Notes: a model not told the origin generated them from the letters alone. Shown: positions 36,495 through 64,000, counted from the stretch's first letter. The stretch is 64,000 nucleotides of DNA from a virus (IMGVR_UViG_3300028073_000014:1-64000); one strand, 5' to 3'. Translations and numbers: made by a program.

Positions 36495-36947
36495 GAAAGA
36501 AAGTGTATCCAAGCGAAATCCGTTATTCATCAAAAACTGCTGAATTCTCGGATCTCCACCATTACACATATAGTTCATCGACAAGAAGTCAATCTTTTGA
36601 TGGACAATAATTTTCTCGACCTCTTGTAAAATTCTAAAACCGCCAAACATTGACGGCTCGACTGAAACCCAAATGATTTCAGTCAAGCCTAATTTTCCAC
36701 ACGCCCAATCTTCTGAGATCAAGCCAGCGAACAGAGAGGTTGGCTTGTCGCCATCAAAGTGGCAAACTACAACCGCATTCTGTTTAAAGACAAGAACAAG
36801 CTGAACAAGCTGCTCGATCAAATGGTCAATATCCCATTTGCCAGCAACGTGACTCTGCTTATTTAAAATCTTTTCTAAATGCTGACTATCCTTCATTTTC
36901 AGAAGGATCTTCCGCAGTTCGCTAGCGTTGATTATTCTCTTGGTCAT
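36477..36947 (-). CDS. GNAT acetyltransferase-like protein
   Basis: The 156-residue protein has GNAT traits: a central beta strand pair (NAVVVCHFDGDKPTSLFAGL at ~57-76), then LGLTEIIWVSVEP, FGGFRILQEVEKII (helix after the acetyl-CoA site) and a C-terminal FLMNNGFRLDTLSF, the usual end of the fold. It overlaps the upstream gene by four bases. Substrate unknown; phage GNATs often modify host proteins or sugars. Confidence 0.62.
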   Translation of the reverse strand: MTKRIINASELRKILLKMKDSQHLEKILNKQSHVAGKWDIDHLIEQLVQLVLVFKQNAVVVCHFDGDKPTSLFAGLISEDWACGKLGLTEIIWVSVEPSMFGGFRILQEVEKIIVHQKIDFLSMNYMCNGGDPRIQQFLMNNGFRLDTLSFVKNYK

Positions 36948-37714
36948 TCTGACTTTGCAAGCTGCTTGATAAGGGTACGGGCTTCCTTTGCAGGAACATC
37001 AGACCAACTCTTCCAGTTCTTTGCGTCTTCGTTGCGATAAGTCTCGTCAACCCAAAGCTGACGCAGCCAATTCTTGAAGTCTGAGAACTCAGAGCCTTCA
37101 TTACTGGCGGCGAACTTCTTTTCAAGAATAGCTTGAGGAGAAACATCGCTGTTGCTAGAAGATGCGGCGGCGGTGATTGGCTTCTTAGAGATTTCATCCT
37201 CGCCAACGATATGAATACCAAGGAAGTTGCGGACTGTGCGAACAAAGGCGCGATTTGCGGCGATTGTCTCAAGAAACTTCTGGCCAAAGCCATCGGTATT
37301 ATCGTAAGTAGCATTAGCTACATCCATCGTGCTTAGAGATTCCCAAGCGTCTTCTCCAGCAATTGGATTCGTGGATTCTTGATTAGTCATCCAATCGATT
37401 GTGCAAGTGGCGACGACATAATCTTTTTCAAGCTTTGGGAAAGCAAAGGTGATTCTATTATATCCGCGAAGCTTTGCAACTTCCTTGATGCCGCCAAGCT
37501 TGATAAGAAGCTGCTCATCTCTGAGATCTGGAGTATAAGCCTCTGGCACAGGGCGGTTTCTACGCTCAAACCAGTCCTTGTTGGGATACAGGTGCGCCGG
37601 ATTCACCATTGCGCGCCAGTTGACTGTGCCATCCTTATTTAGAATGTAGTTAACGTTGGAAAGAAAACCGCGACTATCGCGGAGAGTTGGTTTATTAAAG
37701 GTTTGGTCGCTCAT
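36944..37714 (-). CDS. Conserved phage protein, possibly a DNA-annealing/recombination factor
   Basis: ATG at 37714 (MSDQTFNKPTLRDSRGF) is chosen; an earlier start would lie in the previous gene. The ~256-residue protein belongs to a set common in aquatic phages: GFLSNVNYILNKDGTVNWRA (~16-35), LGGIKEVAKLRGY, then FLETIAANRAFVRTVRNFLG (~146-165), VGEDEIS and an Ala/Ser linker. The last helix resembles the AxKRAxRxFG helix of Rad52-type annealing proteins, so a role in recombination is possible but is inference. It overlaps the glycosyltransferase by 20 bases. Confidence 0.55.
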   Translation of the reverse strand: MSDQTFNKPTLRDSRGFLSNVNYILNKDGTVNWRAMVNPAHLYPNKDWFERRNRPVPEAYTPDLRDEQLLIKLGGIKEVAKLRGYNRITFAFPKLEKDYVVATCTIDWMTNQESTNPIAGEDAWESLSTMDVANATYDNTDGFGQKFLETIAANRAFVRTVRNFLGIHIVGEDEISKKPITAAASSSNSDVSPQAILEKKFAASNEGSEFSDFKNWLRQLWVDETYRNEDAKNWKSWSDVPAKEARTLIKQLAKSE

Positions 37715-38870
37715 CTTTGTAAATGTAGAAGTAATCTGACTCCTGCCAGAATGCCTGATCATCTACGACTTTCGCTGACCTGTCAAGCTTTGGCTGCTTC
37801 TTTTCCCAAAAAAGTTTGCACGAATACACTTTTCCTTCCGAAAAGATGATTTTTTCAGAATTAAAATTGCAAGATTCGTCGATTTCTGATGCATTTTTAA
37901 TTCTGGACTTGGTGATAACCTCGTCCTTATCTAATTTAAAATCAAAGAATTTTTCACAAAGCGCGGACCACTCGTCATTAAATGGTGCCGAAAGATTCAA
38001 TTTGATACCTAACGACTTCACTTTGGTCAGGTATTCTTCTGAGATATCATTGCTGGCGATGACGTTTAGACCACAAATTTTTGCTTTGATCGAATTTAAA
38101 ATATTAATATTGATCTCTTTTGCAGTAACAATATTAACTTTGCAGATACTAGCTAGCCGCATTAGGTTCTGCTCATCAAAATGATAATCCATTCTGACGT
38201 TGCAGATTTTATCTTTGATAAAGATTGGATAGCTGGTTGAGTCGGGGACAACTTCTATGGTTGGGTTGTGATACTCCGCGCCAATAAAAAGAGTTTTTAC
38301 CAGATCTAGGTTGTTAGTTACTCCAAGATGATCCAAAGCTGCCTTAGCGATGATCTCGGGCTTAACTGTATTAATATTCTTTTTCTTTTCGGTTAGGGAG
38401 AAGGAAGGTTTACCTTGTTCCGCCCAATTAACCTCAATCAATGAGCGGTTATGGCGCTTGCCCCAGATTGGAAAGCAGTTCTGAGCATAGCAATAAGAAT
38501 ACAGGGCGACGATCTTCTTGTCGTAGTGTCCTGCCAAATGGGTCGATAAACTGTCAATTCCAAGGTATAAGCAACTGTTTTTAATAAGATATGCTAGCTG
38601 TCTGATACTGGTCTTACCCCTGAGATCAAGATCGACTCCTGCAACACTTTGGTCGCTTTCTACCCCTACGTGAACGATTTTATAATCTTTGGTATATTCT
38701 CTGATGTATTGGAAAACCTTTAGCCAGTAATCGTATTGTCTGGAGTTACCCTTGCCGCTAGTTTGAAAAACAATGTATTTGTCCAAGGCTATTGGATAAT
38801 ACTGCTCCAAAATAAATGGCTTATCTATTTTAACTCCACAAGAAAGGGCGTAACGCTCAAGAATGTGCAT
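37695..38870 (-). CDS. GT9-like glycosyltransferase, C-terminal half
   Basis: The 391-residue product opens MHILERYALSCGVKI, which in GT9 proteins is the linker between halves, and continues with the donor-binding half: YIVFQTSGKGNSRQYDYWLK, LRGKTSIRQLAYLIKNS and LGIDSLSTHLAGHYDKK. It therefore lacks the N-terminal acceptor half, which is found in frame-shifted form at the end of the gene upstream (38857-40773); the two overlap by 14 bases. The C-terminal ~180 residues are an extra domain of unknown type. The pair may work as one enzyme made by frameshifting or as a split enzyme. Confidence 0.68.
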   Translation of the reverse strand: MHILERYALSCGVKIDKPFILEQYYPIALDKYIVFQTSGKGNSRQYDYWLKVFQYIREYTKDYKIVHVGVESDQSVAGVDLDLRGKTSIRQLAYLIKNSCLYLGIDSLSTHLAGHYDKKIVALYSYCYAQNCFPIWGKRHNRSLIEVNWAEQGKPSFSLTEKKKNINTVKPEIIAKAALDHLGVTNNLDLVKTLFIGAEYHNPTIEVVPDSTSYPIFIKDKICNVRMDYHFDEQNLMRLASICKVNIVTAKEININILNSIKAKICGLNVIASNDISEEYLTKVKSLGIKLNLSAPFNDEWSALCEKFFDFKLDKDEVITKSRIKNASEIDESCNFNSEKIIFSEGKVYSCKLFWEKKQPKLDRSAKVVDDQAFWQESDYFYIYKDERPNL

Positions 38871-40773
38871 TTTCGGAATAGAGATTTAATTCGATAAGAT
38901 CGGCACCATTGTGCTGATAGTCAAAAAGCTTTTGGGTGCCAAAGTGAGGTAGGTAAGCAAGATTAAAGTAGCCTTCATAAGCGCCGTGACCTTCCATTGT
39001 TAAGAGGTTTTCCATAAAAGGACTAAACACAATGGTTTTGTGGATTAGTGGATTACCCTCTAGGATATTTAAATATTCAGGTTTAGTTGCAAAATAAATA
39101 TTAAAATCTGGATAAAGCTTCTTGATCGAGGGTAGTAAAGAAGTGGATAGGAATACATCTCCCGCACTTTCTGGCATTACAAATAAGATTCTTCGACCTT
39201 TATCATTCTTATCCAGTACATCAGAGAACTCAATTTTGATGTTTTCTTGATTCTCTTTCGCGCCAACGTTTTTAAAGTAGTTTAGAATTTGCTCGCGGGG
39301 GATTCCATTGTTTAGCTGGCTCATCCAGCTTTTTACGCCGTCGTCATTTGGGTCCACCTTGACCTTTAAAATGTTGGCGTACAGGTCAATGACCCAGTCT
39401 AAGTTCTGAAGTTCTTCTTTGCCATTGTAGCTTGGGTCGCGGGGCACAAAAGAAGTATTAAAATCCCACTCAACTTGAGGAGCTTCATCGATGATTTTTT
39501 CCAACTGTTTGCCAATAATTTCGGCAGACAAGTTGTCGATTACGAATCGTCGTCCAACCTTACCCATCTCGGCGCGCTTGGAAGGACTCATCTTATATAC
39601 CCTCTCAAGCTTTTCGGCAATTGATTCTGGAAGAGTGGTAGCTTTAATAAAATTACTACCTGGTTCGTAATAAGGTTTCCAATTCAATGGGATACCGCCG
39701 CTCTCTTCCGTGGAGAAGTCTTCGCCACAAGAATAGTTTGTTACTAAGGTGACAAGCTCTGTTAGTTTAGCTTCTGTGATTGGAATCTCCTGCCCACCAC
39801 TAGTGAACGGATGGCAGTAAACATCCATTAAGTTATATATTTCGTTAAGCTGTGCTTCTGATACTCCGTCTGATATATTTGTGGTTTCGACAGTTCCTTT
39901 GGCGCCACAGTATCTGCACTGAATCTTTTGGCCGATAAACGGCTTCACTTCAAACTGCTTGCAGCTTTTGCAGAAGTAGGTGGTGAGAACGTCCGAGTTT
40001 TCAATACCGGCATCCTTGATCAAGCGAGGAATGTCCCAGCCTTCTGACCAGTGGGTGTGAAGCAAAAGCTTGGCTTTTACCTTGGGGTTCTTATCCTTGA
40101 AGATCTTGAAGCCTTGCAGGAGGTTTGGCACGCTTTTGCGAAGCTGATTTCGGAACACGAAGCCAATGATGAACTCATCAGACAGATTAAACTCTTTTCT
40201 CAGAGCGGCGCGATTCTCGTCGCTAAGTCTGTAAAAGGCAGAAGTCTCGCCCGCTCCTCTAAGTGTTTTGATTGCGCCTTCATCATAACCAAGACGTTTG
40301 ACCTCCTTGGAAACAAAGGAGGCCCAAGCATAATAATGATTTACCTTGGGAATCATTTTGAGCGCATCTGGATAAATGGGCAGGGAGTCCAAGGTTGTCC
40401 AAATCATACAGTTTTGGTTCCACCACTTCTTTTCGACTAACGGAGCCAAGGCCCAGATATCCTCAATGCCGATATAGAAATCAGGCTTGACCTCTTTCAT
40501 TAAACCGTCAATCTCATACAGACCATAAGCCGCAGTTCTGATCTTGGTTTGATCGCCGCCAAACGATTGCAGTTTACTGTTTTCTGGCAGTGTACCGTAA
40601 GCTCTCCACGGTAATGTTTTTAGCTCTTCAGAGTCTTTAGTTTTTGCATTGGCAAACTCAACAAGATTGTACTTACCAGTCTTATGCAAATAGCGAAGAA
40701 CATTTCGCATATTCTTGCCAAAACCTGTAAAAGCTCTGCTGTGATTACTGTGGAGAACTACGGTCTTTTTCAT
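38857..40773 (-). CDS. GT4 glycosyltransferase fused to GT9 N-terminal half
   Basis: ATG at 40773 forms an ATGA overlap with the previous gene. The 638-residue protein has a GT4-type GT-B body (~1-430): a VVLHSNHSRAFTGFGKNMRN start, FIIGFVFRNQLRKSVPNLLQ and DVYCHPFTSGGQEIPITEAK. A zinc ribbon (CKSC...CRYC, ~266-290) is inserted in it. The C-terminal ~115 residues (RILFVMPESAGDVFLSTSLL and on) are the N-terminal half of a GT9 domain and stop where the next gene takes over. It should transfer a sugar from a nucleotide donor; the acceptor is unknown. Confidence 0.75.
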   Translation of the reverse strand: MKKTVVLHSNHSRAFTGFGKNMRNVLRYLHKTGKYNLVEFANAKTKDSEELKTLPWRAYGTLPENSKLQSFGGDQTKIRTAAYGLYEIDGLMKEVKPDFYIGIEDIWALAPLVEKKWWNQNCMIWTTLDSLPIYPDALKMIPKVNHYYAWASFVSKEVKRLGYDEGAIKTLRGAGETSAFYRLSDENRAALRKEFNLSDEFIIGFVFRNQLRKSVPNLLQGFKIFKDKNPKVKAKLLLHTHWSEGWDIPRLIKDAGIENSDVLTTYFCKSCKQFEVKPFIGQKIQCRYCGAKGTVETTNISDGVSEAQLNEIYNLMDVYCHPFTSGGQEIPITEAKLTELVTLVTNYSCGEDFSTEESGGIPLNWKPYYEPGSNFIKATTLPESIAEKLERVYKMSPSKRAEMGKVGRRFVIDNLSAEIIGKQLEKIIDEAPQVEWDFNTSFVPRDPSYNGKEELQNLDWVIDLYANILKVKVDPNDDGVKSWMSQLNNGIPREQILNYFKNVGAKENQENIKIEFSDVLDKNDKGRRILFVMPESAGDVFLSTSLLPSIKKLYPDFNIYFATKPEYLNILEGNPLIHKTIVFSPFMENLLTMEGHGAYEGYFNLAYLPHFGTQKLFDYQHNGADLIELNLYSENAHS

Positions 40774-41234
40774 ACTGAACACTCAAAGAAAACGCGAAGA
40801 TAGTTTTCCATATACTGAGCAATAAGCTCGGCCTCACCAAGCTCAAAGCCGATCAGGAAGGATTGCTCACCCTTCTTGATACTAAATGAGAAAGCGTCTT
40901 CGCCACTCTTCTTTTGATACGGCCCAAACATAATTGATGTTGTTGAGCCCTGATAAGCGTGAACAGTAGAGAACTTAGACGAGCACCTTACTGCACGAAT
41001 AATCGATGCCGCCTCTGTCTCGTTAAGCTTTAGCGCCGCAGTCTTCTCTGGGTTTTTGGCGTTTTCTGAGAATGAGCCCTTGCGGGTCTGCTCGTTCCAT
41101 CCTGCCTGCTTGACGAAGCTTACGTAAAGATCTGGAGCTTCGCCTTTTGTCTGATCCTTGTCCTTATAAGATGTGTTAAAAGATACCGCTGTACCTGTAT
41201 TCGACTTGTTGGGTTTATAAAAATTAAGGCGCAT
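40770..41234 (-). CDS. Conserved phage protein, possibly nucleic-acid-binding
   Basis: The 154-residue protein is of a type found widely in aquatic phages: MRLNFYKPNKSNTGTAVSF, then DLYVSFVKQAGWNEQTRKGS (~35-54), LKLNETEAASIIRAV and FSFSIKKGEQSFLIGFELGE. The arrangement (beta strands, then a final helix) is like PC4-type single-strand-binding coactivators, but this is a structural guess. The start codon is inside a long hairpin (41228-41265), which could give autoregulation of translation. Confidence 0.5.
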   Translation of the reverse strand: MRLNFYKPNKSNTGTAVSFNTSYKDKDQTKGEAPDLYVSFVKQAGWNEQTRKGSFSENAKNPEKTAALKLNETEAASIIRAVRCSSKFSTVHAYQGSTTSIMFGPYQKKSGEDAFSFSIKKGEQSFLIGFELGEAELIAQYMENYLRVFFECSV

Positions 41235-57674: not shown

Positions 57675-58084
57675 TATAAAATGATTCCTTGCTTTTCGAA
57701 CGTTTCTTTGCAGATGAGATCGGTCTCGTAGATTTCTACCAGCTTTATGCCGTTTGTCAAGCAAAATTGCAACTTTAAATCGTCACGTTTAAGCTGGGAC
57801 AACCACTTACGCCGATCATTGCCGTGGAAATAAGGGTTGTAGGTTTGATGCTGCTTGCCCTGAACCTCTATCGCTATCTTTTTATTTGCATTATAAATGT
57901 CAAGAGATAGGCGGGTTCCTACAACCCTTATCTCCTCAAACACAACGTCGTACTTCCAGTAGGGTAATAAAAACTGCTTTACCCTCCATTGGATGTTGCT
58001 TTTGGATTTCGCTTCCCAATTAATTATGTATTTTTTAGCATTTTTAAGAAAGCGCTCTTTGCCATTTAGGGTCTTAAACTTCAT
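57674..58084 (-). CDS. Vsr/DUF559-like PD-(D/E)XK nuclease
   Basis: The 136-residue basic protein fits the very-short-patch-repair-like nuclease fold: RLSLDIYNANKKIAIEVQGK (Asp and E-x-Q, ~58-77) and a C-terminal LKLQFCLTNGIKLVEIYE strand. Related phage proteins act as free-standing homing nucleases or nick DNA at mismatches. It lies between the helicase and RecA genes and overlaps RecA by 11 bases. Confidence 0.72.
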   Translation of the reverse strand: MKFKTLNGKERFLKNAKKYIINWEAKSKSNIQWRVKQFLLPYWKYDVVFEEIRVVGTRLSLDIYNANKKIAIEVQGKQHQTYNPYFHGNDRRKWLSQLKRDDLKLQFCLTNGIKLVEIYETDLICKETFEKQGIIL

Positions 58085-59231
58085 TTGCTGAGTTCTCAGC
58101 GATAATATTAATGAAGTACTTGTGCAGGGTCTTAGTCAGCTTTTCGTTGGCTTCAATAAATTCAAAGACCGCGTTTTCCCCTTGAAATTTTTCAGGCATA
58201 TCTATGCCGATATCCTTGGCAATTTTGGCAAGATCTTCCGATACGGCATACCAAGCTCCAGCACGACTTACGAGTTCCCAAGTAAGCAGCATATCAACAA
58301 TCTCCTTCTCAACCCATACGGATCTGCCATTGCTGCGTCCATACTTGATTGGATATGTAACTCTATTCTTGCTCTTCTCATTTGGACTTTTTTTGATATA
58401 AATCTTACAGTTGTGTCCGATGATTGGGTTTTTTATCGGGTCTGACTTCTTTATGCTTGGGTCTTTAAGGATAATATCTCCCTCAAAGCGAGGCTCAAAT
58501 TCAAAGATAAAATTAGCAAAGTGAAGCAGGGCATTGCCACCAGTGGCGGATGTTTGGCGGATTGGTGCTGAACTGTAAGGGTCCAGTTTGATATCGCTTC
58601 TGACCTGAGAGATAAAGATCGCCATATGCCCGCGCTTGGTAAGCGCGATAGAAATCTTTTTCATAAGGTTTGCTGCGATAACGGCGCCACCAGCGACCTT
58701 TACAGACTCTTCAAAAGTCTTATCAAGATCGTTCTTCGCAATGAGTCCGTCAACAGAATCAACGATGAACATATACTTGTTCTTTTCGTCGTTGTACATT
58801 ACCAGCTTTCGCATTGCGTCTACGACGGTCTCATAGATGTTCGATTCAAAAACAAAACAGGTGCCAGCCTCCCATTCGGACGGGTCAAACACGAACTTTA
58901 CTCCGCTTCTCTTTTGCATCTCTGGGGAAAGGCGACCCTCGGCTTTAATATAAAAGCCCTTTGAGCTTGGAACGGTATTGAGGAAGTTCCGCATAACCTC
59001 AAGTGACGCAGAGGTCTTGCCGCCCTCGGTAAAGCCTACGAAGCGATGTAGACCTGGTCCAAGACCGCCGCCTGTTTGCATATCCATATTCAAAGAGCCT
59101 GTAGAAACCTTGTAGTTTACAGACTCTTCGAAATTGTAATGGTCGTCCTTGTTGGACTTTAAAAAATCGCCAAGAATACTCTTGGATGAAATGCCATCTT
59201 CTTTCTGTTCTTCTTTTGCCTTCTTGCTCAT
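58074..59231 (-). CDS. RecA-family recombinase
   Basis: The 385-residue protein is a RecA/UvsX-type strand-exchange protein. Walker A GFTEGGKTS (66-74), Walker B YMFIVDSVDGL (~152-162), and FISQVRSDIKLDPYSSAPIR (~201-220) with SATGGNAL, as in loop L2 regions. It should form filaments for recombination-dependent replication and repair. It overlaps the upstream small gene as ATGA, so they are co-translated. Confidence 0.9.
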   Translation of the reverse strand: MSKKAKEEQKEDGISSKSILGDFLKSNKDDHYNFEESVNYKVSTGSLNMDMQTGGGLGPGLHRFVGFTEGGKTSASLEVMRNFLNTVPSSKGFYIKAEGRLSPEMQKRSGVKFVFDPSEWEAGTCFVFESNIYETVVDAMRKLVMYNDEKNKYMFIVDSVDGLIAKNDLDKTFEESVKVAGGAVIAANLMKKISIALTKRGHMAIFISQVRSDIKLDPYSSAPIRQTSATGGNALLHFANFIFEFEPRFEGDIILKDPSIKKSDPIKNPIIGHNCKIYIKKSPNEKSKNRVTYPIKYGRSNGRSVWVEKEIVDMLLTWELVSRAGAWYAVSEDLAKIAKDIGIDMPEKFQGENAVFEFIEANEKLTKTLHKYFINIIAENSANEV

Positions 59232-60042: not shown

Positions 60043-60666
60043 TTAAAGCTTAAAAGCTTGTATTGTAAGTGGGAACTTGTTGGTTTCTTTTACAAGTTCA
60101 AGCATCTCTGATGCAATATTGCGAATCTCTACTTGTGCATCTTGCTTATTACGAAGGTTTAAGAAGTGATAAAACGAGCGCCAATTAAACATTACATCGC
60201 TTGTAATCTGGGTATTATACCCACGGAAGAATCTAGCTGACTCCTTTGCGCGCTTTCTGGTGAAGCCATAGTTCTTAACTAGGTCTTCGATACACTTGTG
60301 ATACAGATCCATTCCTCTTTCGGTATGGGTAGAGAGGATCTCCTTCCAAGTATCTGGCCAATCTTGCGGAACAAGATAGTCATCCTCTTTGATCTCCTTG
60401 TATCTTGCAGATTCTCCGTTTACCGATACGCCAACTCTATGCTTGATTAGATGAATATGAGAGGCTATGTCTGTCTTTATTAGAAAATGCAGGGAGGATT
60501 TTTCAAAGGGAGTGTGGTGTCCATTTTCAGCCAGCATCTTGAGTAGATCGCCCACTCTGCCCTTCTTTTCTTCATTGATGTCACGACTGGTTGAAGTCCA
60601 AGCAGAACAAGCGTGAGTAAGATCGTCGCCATAGATACCGATTAAGTTAACTGAGTTTTTGAACAT
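60043..60666 (-). CDS. thyX: Flavin-dependent thymidylate synthase ThyX
   Basis: ATG at 60666 is preferred because GGAGG lies just upstream; an ATG at 60678 lacks this. The ~207-residue protein has the ThyX motif KHRVGVSVNGESARY (~79-93; first position Lys in place of Arg), with the flavin-binding FFRGYNTQI region and the C-terminal RSFYHFLNLRN. It converts dUMP to dTMP with methylene-tetrahydrofolate and NADPH. With NrdAB it supplies nucleotides. Confidence 0.92.
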   Translation of the reverse strand: MFKNSVNLIGIYGDDLTHACSAWTSTSRDINEEKKGRVGDLLKMLAENGHHTPFEKSSLHFLIKTDIASHIHLIKHRVGVSVNGESARYKEIKEDDYLVPQDWPDTWKEILSTHTERGMDLYHKCIEDLVKNYGFTRKRAKESARFFRGYNTQITSDVMFNWRSFYHFLNLRNKQDAQVEIRNIASEMLELVKETNKFPLTIQAFKL

Positions 60667-61597
60667 CGCCGCCTCCATTGTAATAACTGTTATAAGCTTT
60701 TAGGATTGCGGAGAAGTATGCGGCATGAACGTCTGGTTTGTCAAGAGCATTTGCTAGATATTTTTGACAATTTTTAATTGATTGAATGTAATTTTTATCA
60801 TTTCCCATCTGTGCCATAAAGTGTTCGATACAGTCTTGATCAACATAAATTACGCCCTGAATGACATCAAACATATGATAGTACCAAGAAATCTCATCTT
60901 GATACGACGGAGGGCGAACATAAATACAAATAGAATTTGATTTCATTGCCCAGATTAGCCTCTCCCAAGATGTGGTGTTGCCATTGACATTTAAAATATA
61001 TTTATATTTTAATTGATCAGCAATACTGATATAAGCTCCAGCGATGCCATCCTCAAAGGGAAATTCGACAAAGTTTGTAATCTTAGCGTCTACTAGTTGG
61101 CTGTATCTGTACTTTCTGCAAAGATCAATTCTTTGCACTGAACCATTGTGCTTTGCGCCAGTATCTGACCCGCAAAAAATCGCTTTATCCATTTTTTCTT
61201 CAAATGGAATATCCACGCTCTCTATTTGGCTACAGATGCTAGCTGTTCGCGACAAATGAGAATCTGGAATGCAGATGTGTGGACTGTTTCTTGGACGCGC
61301 AAAGCACAGCCTTGTTTCCTTTGAGTCGTTCTGCGGACCATCGTTAAAGTTTACAATGGCTTCAAAATCAAGATCGCACAAATTATAGCTTCTAATGGTT
61401 GCGTCTGTAAATTGGATAAAGAAATTAAGTCGTATCTCGTCGATCCAATTTGACTTTCTTAAAACACGAACTCCATCCCTAGAGATGGAGCAGTGAGCTT
61501 CGTTTCTAAAAAGATTTACGCTGTTTAAATCTCTTGAGATATTTAATCTTGATGGATGAAATTCATTCAGTACGCAATAAGCTAGGATATGGTTCAT
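60647..61597 (-). CDS. GT90 (CAP10/LpsA-like) glycosyltransferase
   Basis: The 316-residue protein fits the GT90 family (CAP10, LpsA): KAIFCGSDTGAK (~140-151), DLCRKYRYSQLVDAKITNFV (159-178) and, as the diagnostic core, YKYILNVNGNTTSWERLIWA (203-222) followed by MKSNSICIYVRPP and WYY. It transfers a pentose or hexose (xylose in known members) to a glycan. It overlaps gmd by four bases and thyX by 20, so these genes are translated together. The acceptor is unknown. Confidence 0.82.
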   Translation of the reverse strand: MNHILAYCVLNEFHPSRLNISRDLNSVNLFRNEAHCSISRDGVRVLRKSNWIDEIRLNFFIQFTDATIRSYNLCDLDFEAIVNFNDGPQNDSKETRLCFARPRNSPHICIPDSHLSRTASICSQIESVDIPFEEKMDKAIFCGSDTGAKHNGSVQRIDLCRKYRYSQLVDAKITNFVEFPFEDGIAGAYISIADQLKYKYILNVNGNTTSWERLIWAMKSNSICIYVRPPSYQDEISWYYHMFDVIQGVIYVDQDCIEHFMAQMGNDKNYIQSIKNCQKYLANALDKPDVHAAYFSAILKAYNSYYNGGGDVQKLS

Positions 61598-62622
61598 TGA
61601 GCAAGGTCGTTGAGCGTCATCTTTTTAACAAGCTGGAAGAAGCTTGTCTTGGGTCGCCAGCCAAGCTCACTTCTGGCCATTGTAGAATCGCCAAGAAGCA
61701 GTTCGACTTCAGCTGGGCGGAAGAACTTTGGATCGATCATTACCATAGGAAGTCTGCTTTCCTTATTTATAAAGACTTCTTCGATGGTTCCTCGGTTGCC
61801 GAGCCATTGACCTTCGATACCAGCCGCAGCAAAAGACAGTTCTACAAATTCTCTAACAGTATGAGTTTCGTCAGAAGAAAGCACATAGTCCTTTGGCTTT
61901 TCCTGATTAAGCATCAGCCAAATACCATGAACAAAGTCTTCAGCATCACTCCAATCGCGCTTTGACTCAAGATTGCCTAGCTTTATAGCCTCAATAAAGT
62001 TATTTGAGTCTATTGCCTTTTTAATTTTTGCAACTCCCTTGGTGATCTTTCTAGTGACAAACTCTGAGCCTCTGCGAGTTCCTTCGTGATTAAAAAGCCA
62101 GCCTTGAACTGCATAAAGATTGTAAGAGTCTCTCCATACTTTTACAACTTGTCTTGCGGCAGCTTTTGATGCTCCGTATGGACTTCTGGGTCTAAGTGGA
62201 TGAAATTCTGTTTGGGGGCTAAAGGTAACATCTCCAAATTCCTCTGAGGAGCCTGCGTTGTAGTAGCGACAGTTTGGAACAAACTTTCTAATTGCCTCAA
62301 GTTGATAAAGCACTCCCATACAGTTGGTTTGCATATGGTTGACTGGCATTTCCCAACTTGTCCCTACAAAGGAGTTTGCCGCTAAATTAATAAAATAATC
62401 CGGCTTGTATTTGAATATCGCGTTATTTACGCTTTCTGGGTCACCAATATCAAGGTCGATAAGCTTGAATCTTGGATCGGAAATATGGCTAATATTTTTA
62501 TGGTTGGAAACACTAAGACGACGAACTGCACCAAAAATTTGAACATCAGTGTTAGTTAAAAGGTAATCTGCCATATGACTACCATCCTGACCAGTAACTC
62601 CTGTAATGATTACTTTTTTCAT
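61594..62622 (-). CDS. gmd: GDP-mannose 4,6-dehydratase
   Basis: The 342-residue protein is a short-chain dehydrogenase-type sugar enzyme with the NADP site GVTGQDG (8-14), catalytic Tyr-x-x-x-Lys in SPYGASKAAA, and NHEGTRRGSEFVTRKITKGV, close to the Gmd motif NHESPRRGExFVTRKI. It makes GDP-4-keto-6-deoxymannose, which leads to fucose, rhamnose, perosamine or colitose. Its neighbour (62980) is the enzyme type that takes this intermediate to the 3,6-dideoxy branch. Overlap with both neighbours suggests an operon. Confidence 0.92.
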   Translation of the reverse strand: MKKVIITGVTGQDGSHMADYLLTNTDVQIFGAVRRLSVSNHKNISHISDPRFKLIDLDIGDPESVNNAIFKYKPDYFINLAANSFVGTSWEMPVNHMQTNCMGVLYQLEAIRKFVPNCRYYNAGSSEEFGDVTFSPQTEFHPLRPRSPYGASKAAARQVVKVWRDSYNLYAVQGWLFNHEGTRRGSEFVTRKITKGVAKIKKAIDSNNFIEAIKLGNLESKRDWSDAEDFVHGIWLMLNQEKPKDYVLSSDETHTVREFVELSFAAAGIEGQWLGNRGTIEEVFINKESRLPMVMIDPKFFRPAEVELLLGDSTMARSELGWRPKTSFFQLVKKMTLNDLAQ

Positions 62623-62978
62623 TAATTTTTAAATCCTTTATAAAGTTTAACGTTTTCTTCTGAAAACTTTTTGACGTTATTCTTGTTAACATAAACGTCA
62701 AGATATGAATTAATTGCCTTTGTTAACTTCGGGCGGCGATCTTTGAAACAGTAATCGACTTTCCTTTTCAAGTCTGCGACTTCGGCGTCCGTCTTTGCAT
62801 CGGCAATCGCATCTTCCAGCTTCCACATTCTAATGTGCAGAACAATAAAGCGATCCATGATTTCAGCGAAGCTTTCACTAAACTCGATATCAGAAGAGTG
62901 GATCGGCTCTTTGTCAAACCGTTCCGAGATCTCCTCTAGAAGAAGCTCGCTAATTTTATTTATTCTTTCGGTTGACAT
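62622..62978 (-). CDS. DUF4254-like protein
   Basis: The 118-residue protein is helical, with DRFIVLHIRMWKLEDAIADA (42-61) and KVDYCFKDRRPKLTKAINSY (73-92). The pattern L-H-x-x-x-W-x-x-E-D followed by I/V-D-x-x-N/F-x-x-R-x-x-x-x-x-x-I-D resembles DUF4254, which is found in sugar-biosynthesis loci of bacteria and phages. Its activity is not known to me. It overlaps gmd by one base. Confidence 0.5.
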   Translation of the reverse strand: MSTERINKISELLLEEISERFDKEPIHSSDIEFSESFAEIMDRFIVLHIRMWKLEDAIADAKTDAEVADLKRKVDYCFKDRRPKLTKAINSYLDVYVNKNNVKKFSEENVKLYKGFKN

Positions 62979-62979
62979 T

Positions 62980-63999
62980 TTAAATAGTGTTGAGATCTTT
63001 GGCTAAATTTCTTACGTCAGAGTCTTTGAGTTTAGTATGGAGACCAACATAGAACCCATTGTGATGCAGGAACTCGCTATTTGGATAATCGGCGTAGTTG
63101 CCAAACTGCTTAAAACAAGTTTGTCTAAGCAGATTGCCAGAAATAATAGGTCTTGTTTCAATGCCCTTTGAATTGCAATAATTAATTGCGAGCTGCTTGC
63201 TTTCCTGCTTAAGCGGTATGATTGGCAGGGCAAAAGCCACATGTTCCTTCTTTTCATCAAATGGCGGCAGATAATAAAGATCAGAAAGATATGTGTCAAA
63301 TAAAGAGTAAAGCCTGCGTCTCGTTTCTATATGTTTGTCTGCTTTTTTGAGATCAAGAAGGCCAGTCATCGCATGGACTTCTGAGTTTCGAAAATTATTC
63401 CCTACGCAATAAAAATCAAATCTTGGATCAACATCTAAATTGGCGTACCGTGCATTATTTGTTACGGATCTTGTCATCCCGTGATTTCTAAGCATAAGGA
63501 AATATTCGTATTCATCTACATCATTTGTGAATACAAATCCGCCTTCTATGCTTTGAAGATGGTGGCCGAAATAAGTACTTGTAGTGGAGGTAACAAAAGA
63601 TGATACGTTTTTGCCATCATAAGTCCCAAATGTATTTTCGCAATTATCAAACATTAGCCTTACTCCATAAGTTTGAGCTATTTTCTTTAATCTAGGGATA
63701 TCTGGAACAAATCCTAGCAGGCTTGTCGGAAAGATTGCAGCAATATTATCTTTGTTTTTTGATACAAAGTCCTCAAGCAGATCATAGTTAAAGCAAAGAT
63801 CCTCAAGGGATACGTCAATAAATTTTGGTAAAAATCCTTCTCTAATAAATGGTCCAACTGATGTGGCCCAAGTTGTAGATGGAAAAACTACGATATTCTT
63901 ATCTTTCTCTTTGTCAGCAAGATACATCGCAATCATCGTGTTCGCAGTTGAGCCGCTTGAACAGTATACTGCGTACTTACTGTCAACAAAATCCGCCAT
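62980..63999 (-). CDS. ColD-like PLP-dependent GDP-sugar 3-dehydratase (N-terminus probably outside)
   Basis: The protein is of the DegT/DnrJ/EryC1 aminotransferase fold. The PLP-site Lys of this fold is replaced: STYFGHHLQSIEGGF has His146 where SFxxxK would be, as in ColD and related 3-dehydratases that use pyridoxamine phosphate. Other sites: SSGSTANTMIA (~14-24), FDNCENTFG (~117-125, Asp) and FRNSEVHAM. ColD turns GDP-4-keto-6-deoxymannose into the 3,6-dideoxy product on the way to GDP-colitose. The usual ~40 N-terminal residues are missing, so the gene likely extends beyond 64000. Confidence 0.82.
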   Translation of the reverse strand: MADFVDSKYAVYCSSGSTANTMIAMYLADKEKDKNIVVFPSTTWATSVGPFIREGFLPKFIDVSLEDLCFNYDLLEDFVSKNKDNIAAIFPTSLLGFVPDIPRLKKIAQTYGVRLMFDNCENTFGTYDGKNVSSFVTSTTSTYFGHHLQSIEGGFVFTNDVDEYEYFLMLRNHGMTRSVTNNARYANLDVDPRFDFYCVGNNFRNSEVHAMTGLLDLKKADKHIETRRRLYSLFDTYLSDLYYLPPFDEKKEHVAFALPIIPLKQESKQLAINYCNSKGIETRPIISGNLLRQTCFKQFGNYADYPNSEFLHHNGFYVGLHTKLKDSDVRNLAKDLNTI

Positions 64000-64000
64000 A

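Follow-up and report, generated by a model that had tools for sequence, protein, structure and literature searches.

Bases 1-64000 of a 67,240-bp viral contig from IMG/VR (IMGVR_UViG_3300028073_000014; hereafter the window) carry at their right edge a gene for a ColD-like sugar 3-dehydratase, followed on the minus strand by genes for a DUF4254-like protein, a GDP-mannose 4,6-dehydratase (Gmd) and a GT90-like glycosyltransferase. Rare 3,6-dideoxyhexoses such as colitose, abequose and tyvelose are known from the exposed tips of O-antigens in some bacteria, where they are sites of binding for phages and antibodies. A preliminary description of this DNA had proposed a phage-borne route to such a sugar, and this remains by far the best reading of a ColD-type histidine dehydratase adjoining Gmd. 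In the form favoured here, with a probability of about 0.7, an accessory dideoxysugar module is plugged in beside the lineage's own Gmd; its product would be GDP-4-keto-3,6-dideoxymannose, finished by a reductase of the host or by Gmd itself.

The four open reading frames (ORFs) were confirmed where they had first been placed, tightly packed head to tail. The ColD-like and DUF4254-like genes are separated by 1 bp, the DUF4254-like gene overlaps gmd by 1 bp, and gmd overlaps the GT90-like gene by 4 bp. PMP and PLP stand for pyridoxamine and pyridoxal 5'-phosphate.

62980-64122 (window part 62980-63999, open at the edge), minus strand: ColD-like PMP-dependent 3-dehydratase of the His187 type, 380 residues, predicted from profiles, alignment, tree and fold.
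63547-63582, minus strand: active-site segment TSTYFGHHLQSI, residues 181-192, with His187 replacing the PLP-binding lysine, from alignment to ColD structures.
62622-62978, minus strand: DUF4254-like protein, 118 residues, predicted helical, marker of the ColD module by profile and linkage.
61594-62622, minus strand: Gmd (GDP-mannose 4,6-dehydratase) with the motif GSSEEFG, in a clade made up of phage proteins; core gene of the lineage, from profiles and tree.
60647-61597, minus strand: GT90-like glycosyltransferase, a label upheld by PF05686 (30.9 bits, cut-off 24).

The ColD-like gene is intact and full length. Its complete N-terminus was expected to the right of base 64000 and was found there, with 41 further residues and the end of the ORF at 64122. 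The protein belongs to fold-type I by its match to PF01041 (DegT/DnrJ/EryC1/StrS; 182.8 bits, E 1.5e-53). By sequence, the closest solved structures are those of ColD (E 3e-46, compared with 4e-25 for RfbH and 5e-21 for PerA), the best being E. coli ColD (2gms) and its variants H188N (3b8x) and S187N/H188K (3gr9). The histidine reported in place of the PLP lysine, then numbered His146, becomes His187 when the whole protein is counted. Its counterpart in E. coli ColD is His188, and it is invariant across 31 aligned homologues. Histidine also occupies this position in 76/76 ColD-like proteins selected through the DUF4254-like gene and not through ColD. This set and the first viral scan are free of the bias toward histidine brought in by the pattern YFGH, which was part of the second viral scan and of the genome scan. 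Trp85, His214, Arg218 and Glu322 match E. coli ColD (2gms) and differ from RfbH; they correspond to the Trp, His, Arg and Glu of the ColD-type pocket.

An AlphaFold model built on an alignment of phage and cellular homologues reached a pLDDT (predicted local distance difference test) of 95.4. When it was submitted to Foldseek, the top 11 matches were all ColD, with a template-modelling (TM) value of 0.90 for 2gms. In a tree of 107 rows, the His-type 3-dehydratases form a single clade with 100% support, and PerA, WecE and all Lys-type proteins fall outside. The window protein lies within a phage clade of 40 rows (100% support, stem 1.15), which includes one bacterial row and is set apart from RfbH and E. 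coli ColD alike, the latter belonging to another, mostly bacterial clade. Sequence, fold and tree thus put the protein among the ColD-type 3-dehydratases, with predicted dehydratase activity.

Database records label phage ColD proteins, such as those of cyanophages S-CAM7 and ACG-2014f, "aminotransferase" or "CDP-4-keto-6-deoxy-D-glucose-3-dehydrase", and both functions were weighed. A sugar aminotransferase akin to GDP-perosamine synthase would share the DegT/DnrJ/EryC1/StrS superfamily, and the label "aminotransferase" is that given to phage relatives by PHROGs and RefSeq. This function is scarcely credible, however, for an enzyme in which the catalytic lysine is an invariant histidine and which stands outside all Lys-type enzymes. 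The tree with ColD, RfbH and PerA that had been proposed as a check left it apart from PerA-like aminotransferases, a placement among which had been named as a refutation, and membership of that group was rejected, there being neither a catalytic lysine nor a grouping with PerA. A CDP-4-keto-6-deoxyglucose 3-dehydrase of the RfbH/E1 type, the other known His-type enzyme, is also highly improbable. Some of these phages do encode RfbH proper (locus L114, 471 bits, cut-off 423), but the window protein scores 128.7 bits against the same cut-off (NCBIfam NF011936), lacks the RfbH residues and groups away from RfbH, and no CDP-sugar gene was found beside its gene.

Three side observations concern this family. 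At L114:2051-4320, L015:2027-4302 and other loci, the region that holds ColD also encodes another His-type enzyme, one of the RfbH type, beside a dTDP-glucose-4,6-dehydratase-like gene. A chromosomal contig of the betaproteobacterium Hydromonas (L028:5244-7294) carries a ColD of the phage clade (51%) with a CAP59-like transferase, between the rlmJ and mannitol dehydrogenase genes; this is a possible case of phage-to-host transfer and a possible hint of the host. A 2.6-kb "Salmonella phage" record with a ColD/RfbH-like gene (OR851175.1) looks like host contamination.

Gmd matches PF16363 (GDP_Man_Dehyd) with 351.8 bits (E 6e-105), and its best solved matches are of the Gmd type (E 8.5e-82). The catalytic Ser-Glu, Tyr and Lys are kept in 60/60 phage Gmd rows. 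The phage proteins form a phage-only clade (34 rows, 100% support, stem 1.16), which parallels the phage clade of ColD. No correlation was observed between the GSSEEFG motif in phage Gmd and the presence of Fcl. The surroundings of the cassette include the following genes.

58074-59231, minus strand: recombinase of the UvsX/RecA type, which anchors the conserved block next to Gmd, from locus comparison.
60043-60678, minus strand: ThyX (NCBIfam thyX, 99.8 bits, cut-off 87.9).
64119-65198, minus strand: glycosyltransferase-like ORF, with a start probably lower, near 65066, because its relatives have about 313 residues.
65059-65706, minus strand: methyltransferase-like ORF, from the contig read beyond the window.

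The ColD-like ORF overlaps the glycosyltransferase-like ORF by 4 bp to the right of the window edge, and the methyltransferase-like ORF and two ORFs without assigned function follow head to tail. On the other side, the GT90-like and thyX genes overlap by 32 bp; by its position ThyX would belong to the same transcription unit as the cassette, without being a sugar gene. The same gene order recurs in independent contigs with 60-91% identity, and the arrangement is therefore not due to chance. Genes for RIIA/RIIB, tail fibre J, ribonucleotide reductase and DNA polymerase, also present in the contig, confirm a tailed phage as the source, as judged from gene content. A second glycan block at 36944-41234 of the window encodes a GT9-like protein (28.1 bits, cut-off 22) and a 641-residue GT1/DUF4214-like protein.

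A search anchored on UvsX served as a control independent of both Gmd and ColD, although a ColD more than 6 kb away would escape it. Among its non-redundant loci, Gmd was upstream of UvsX in 32/32 and ColD was present in 4/32; when the search was anchored on Gmd, ColD was found in 9/35 loci. Whether or not ColD accompanies it, Gmd belongs to the core gene set of the phage lineage, which is uncultured. With UvsX and the helicase as tblastn queries, the cultured-phage matches were all distant (about 23-29% identity). Gmd lies at the border between the replication block and a hypervariable region, which extends upstream and in which 230 ORFs fall into 119 families, with glycosyltransferases, methyltransferases, RfbB, RfbC, Glf, Fcl and ColD among its gene content. 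ColD is an accessory plug-in of this glycan-gene region. There is an even chance that this large lineage keeps Gmd as a core gene beside the recombinase and swaps tailoring cassettes, the whole forming a phage "serotype" locus. Among the cassettes would then be a module for a GDP-3,6-dideoxyhexose, to which the DUF4254-like protein belongs as a dedicated component not recognised before. In two near relatives, an IMPDH/GMP-reductase-like gene is directly upstream of the sugar cassette (L006:1407-2405, L021:5731-6750), and its product could raise GTP for GDP-mannose. A TPS/beta-helix protein of about 500 residues, absent from the window, is encoded between Gmd and GT90 in the same loci (L006:7343-8851, L021:10568-12070).

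The tightest link of ColD is with the DUF4254-like gene. Its product scores 20.6 bits against PF14063, under the Pfam cut-off of 27, so that the label "DUF4254-like" initially chosen is apt. When this gene was searched alone, ColD was within 5 kb in 29 of 30 non-redundant phage loci, not all of them phylogenetically independent, Gmd in 28 and Fcl in 23; the background frequency of ColD among the UvsX-anchored loci is 4/32. The DUF4254-like gene very often touches ColD, in the order Gmd-Fcl-ColD-DUF4254, and several clades of ColD show the link. The small product of the gene has no membrane segments and is predicted to be helical; its AlphaFold model (pLDDT 57.7) was too poor for use. Among close relatives it is 85-95% conserved, compared with 60-69% for ColD, and distant cousins occur in glycan loci of SAR11. 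We infer from these observations that the protein serves the dideoxysugar module as a dedicated helper.

Several points weigh against the proposed route. The window Gmd scores 327 bits against the NCBIfam equivalog gmd (TIGR01472), under the cut-off of 415, and would on this score be a divergent relative of Gmd. The adjacency of Gmd and ColD is partly positional in this lineage and is weak evidence of a shared pathway or substrate, because Gmd is present in 32/32 loci and ColD in only 4. The earlier view of Gmd has to be revised: although it keeps its catalytic residues, it is not specific to the route, being a core gene throughout the lineage. As the UvsX-anchored control finds Gmd regardless of ColD, proximity was dropped as proof of coupling, and the claim of a shared pathway rests on the residues, the fold, the contact between ColD and Fcl, and independent cyanophage gene sets. 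The colC gene suggested to lie to the right of the window was not there: none occurs in the remaining 3.2 kb of the contig. Gmd is the only Epimerase-family protein encoded in the 67-kb contig, itself incomplete, and neither ColC nor Fcl was found. They are also missing from a 91%-identical relative, an incomplete contig that continues for about 45 kb beyond the flank common to both, with no homology to the window there. No reductase of the adh_short_C2, GFO_IDH or non-Gmd Epimerase families was found in the contig or in near relatives except locus L112. The pathway thus appears incomplete in the window phage, and its last reduction would have to come from a host enzyme or from Gmd.

An Fcl/ColC-type reductase is encoded by many related phages. 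Partners were counted for non-redundant viral ColD loci whose flanks extend 3 kb or more on each side. Of these 59 loci, 40 have Gmd within 3 kb and 23 an Fcl/ColC-type reductase, and 23/23 Fcl genes abut ColD. The Fcl partners are GDP-L-fucose-synthase-like and retain the reductase and epimerase residues, with Tyr136, Lys140 and His179 in 37/37 and Cys109 in 36/37. Cultured Synechococcus phages S-CAM7 and ACG-2014f have Gmd, Fcl, ColD and a glycosyltransferase in a row, and predicted complete gene sets of the GDP-colitose type do exist in phages. Near relatives whose ColD is 58% or more identical to that of the window, and whose flanks reach 3 kb or more, have Gmd in 7/7 and Fcl in 0/7. L112 (61% identity, shorter flanks) shows the order Gmd-ColD-Fcl, with a Gmd of a different, bacterial type. 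Gain or loss of Fcl amounts to 8 changes on the ColD tree.

The final product could be true GDP-colitose, with a host Fcl or an unsequenced ColC carrying out C5 epimerisation and C4 reduction. This is a refinement of the proposed route, compatible with it. The Fcl/ColC-type partner directly beside ColD in many loci and in cultured cyanophages argues for it, as do the gene order of L112 and the repeated changes of Fcl, as if the host could supply this enzyme. With no Fcl in 67 kb of the window phage or in near relatives other than L112, GDP-colitose is given slightly less than an even chance. The product could also be GDP-3,6-dideoxy-D-mannose, of the tyvelose type, if phage Gmd itself reduces C4. 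The Gmd of chlorovirus PBCV-1 does so, making GDP-D-rhamnose (PMC4691112); the phage Gmd stands apart in a long-stemmed clade marked by the altered motif, and its status as a core gene, mostly without Fcl or ColD nearby, is sensible if Gmd alone gives a usable sugar. However, reductase activity cannot be read from the sequence of Gmd, and in L012 and L114 a Gmd of the same clade is accompanied by Fcl, an enzyme that this activity would make superfluous. This product is considered rather unlikely.

In the proposed route, phage Gmd would convert host GDP-mannose into GDP-4-keto-6-deoxymannose; the host is taken as the source because no ManC-type NTP_transferase was found. The ColD-like enzyme would then use glutamate as amino donor and strip the hydroxyl group from C3, giving GDP-4-keto-3,6-dideoxymannose. 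Because its lysine is replaced by histidine, it would hold PMP non-covalently. Reduction at C4, with or without C5 epimerisation, would be performed by phage Fcl/ColC in the relatives. In the window phage it would most likely fall to a host Fcl-type enzyme, the simplest supplier, or alternatively to a reductase side activity of Gmd, as in PBCV-1. Soluble glycosyltransferases of the phage would transfer the 3,6-dideoxyhexose to a virion protein or to a glycan of the host surface, and the DUF4254-like protein would assist the module.

Because the transferases have no membrane segments and no Wzx flippase was found, a new O-antigen encoded by the phage is a less likely acceptor than a virion protein or a glycan core already present in the host. 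Phage DNA is a very unlikely acceptor. The cassette adjoins the replication genes of UvsX, helicase and ThyX, but no gene of the thymidylate-synthase/dCMP-hydroxymethylase family is present in this or the related contigs, which are partial, and the hypervariable glycan genes nearby fit a surface structure better.

A Gmd kept by every sampled phage of the lineage, next to an apparently swappable ColD, suggests that these phages tailor a surface sugar which they select themselves. Dideoxyhexoses made by a phage could shield its host from rival phages by masking or altering the cell surface, or could form a coat on its own virions. If it is true that a core Gmd has swappable neighbours, phages would possess an equivalent of the O-antigen loci of bacteria. 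A single viral collection yielded at least 566 candidate loci, His- and Lys-type relatives counted together, which indicates that dideoxysugar-type genes are common in phages. Their presence in cultured Synechococcus phages makes the route testable now, and the link to ColD provides a first handle on what the DUF4254-like family does.

The phage ColD route is a variant of a known pathway, so far undescribed in the literature found: no description was met in work on phages and colitose or dideoxyhexoses, or on DUF4254, a survey in which subscription papers were thinly covered and which leaves absence unproven. The GDP-colitose pathway of E. coli O55 and similar O-antigen clusters runs through ManB/ManC, Gmd, ColD and ColC. 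The phage genes share with it Gmd and a His-type ColD with ColD active-site residues, and in many related phages an adjacent ColC/Fcl-like partner. They differ in being phage-borne, in having an additional DUF4254-like gene, in the phage clades away from E. coli ColD, and in that no ManC was seen and the window phage has no ColC. RfbH/E1 is likewise PMP-dependent with histidine replacing lysine, but it is a longer protein with other active-site residues, uses a CDP substrate and requires an iron-sulphur/flavin reductase partner. The Gmd/Fcl sets of cyanophages S-SCSM1 and P-SSM2 similarly represent phage-encoded GDP-6-deoxyhexose synthesis adjoining glycosyltransferases; in the available portions of these reports they are described as GDP-L-fucose routes, the GDP-fucose part only, without mention of a ColD step (PMC9602691, PMC10611076). 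Finally, PBCV-1 is an algal virus for which no 3-dehydratase is described, but with its Gmd and GMER it resembles these phages as a virus that makes its own GDP-deoxysugars (PMC4691112).

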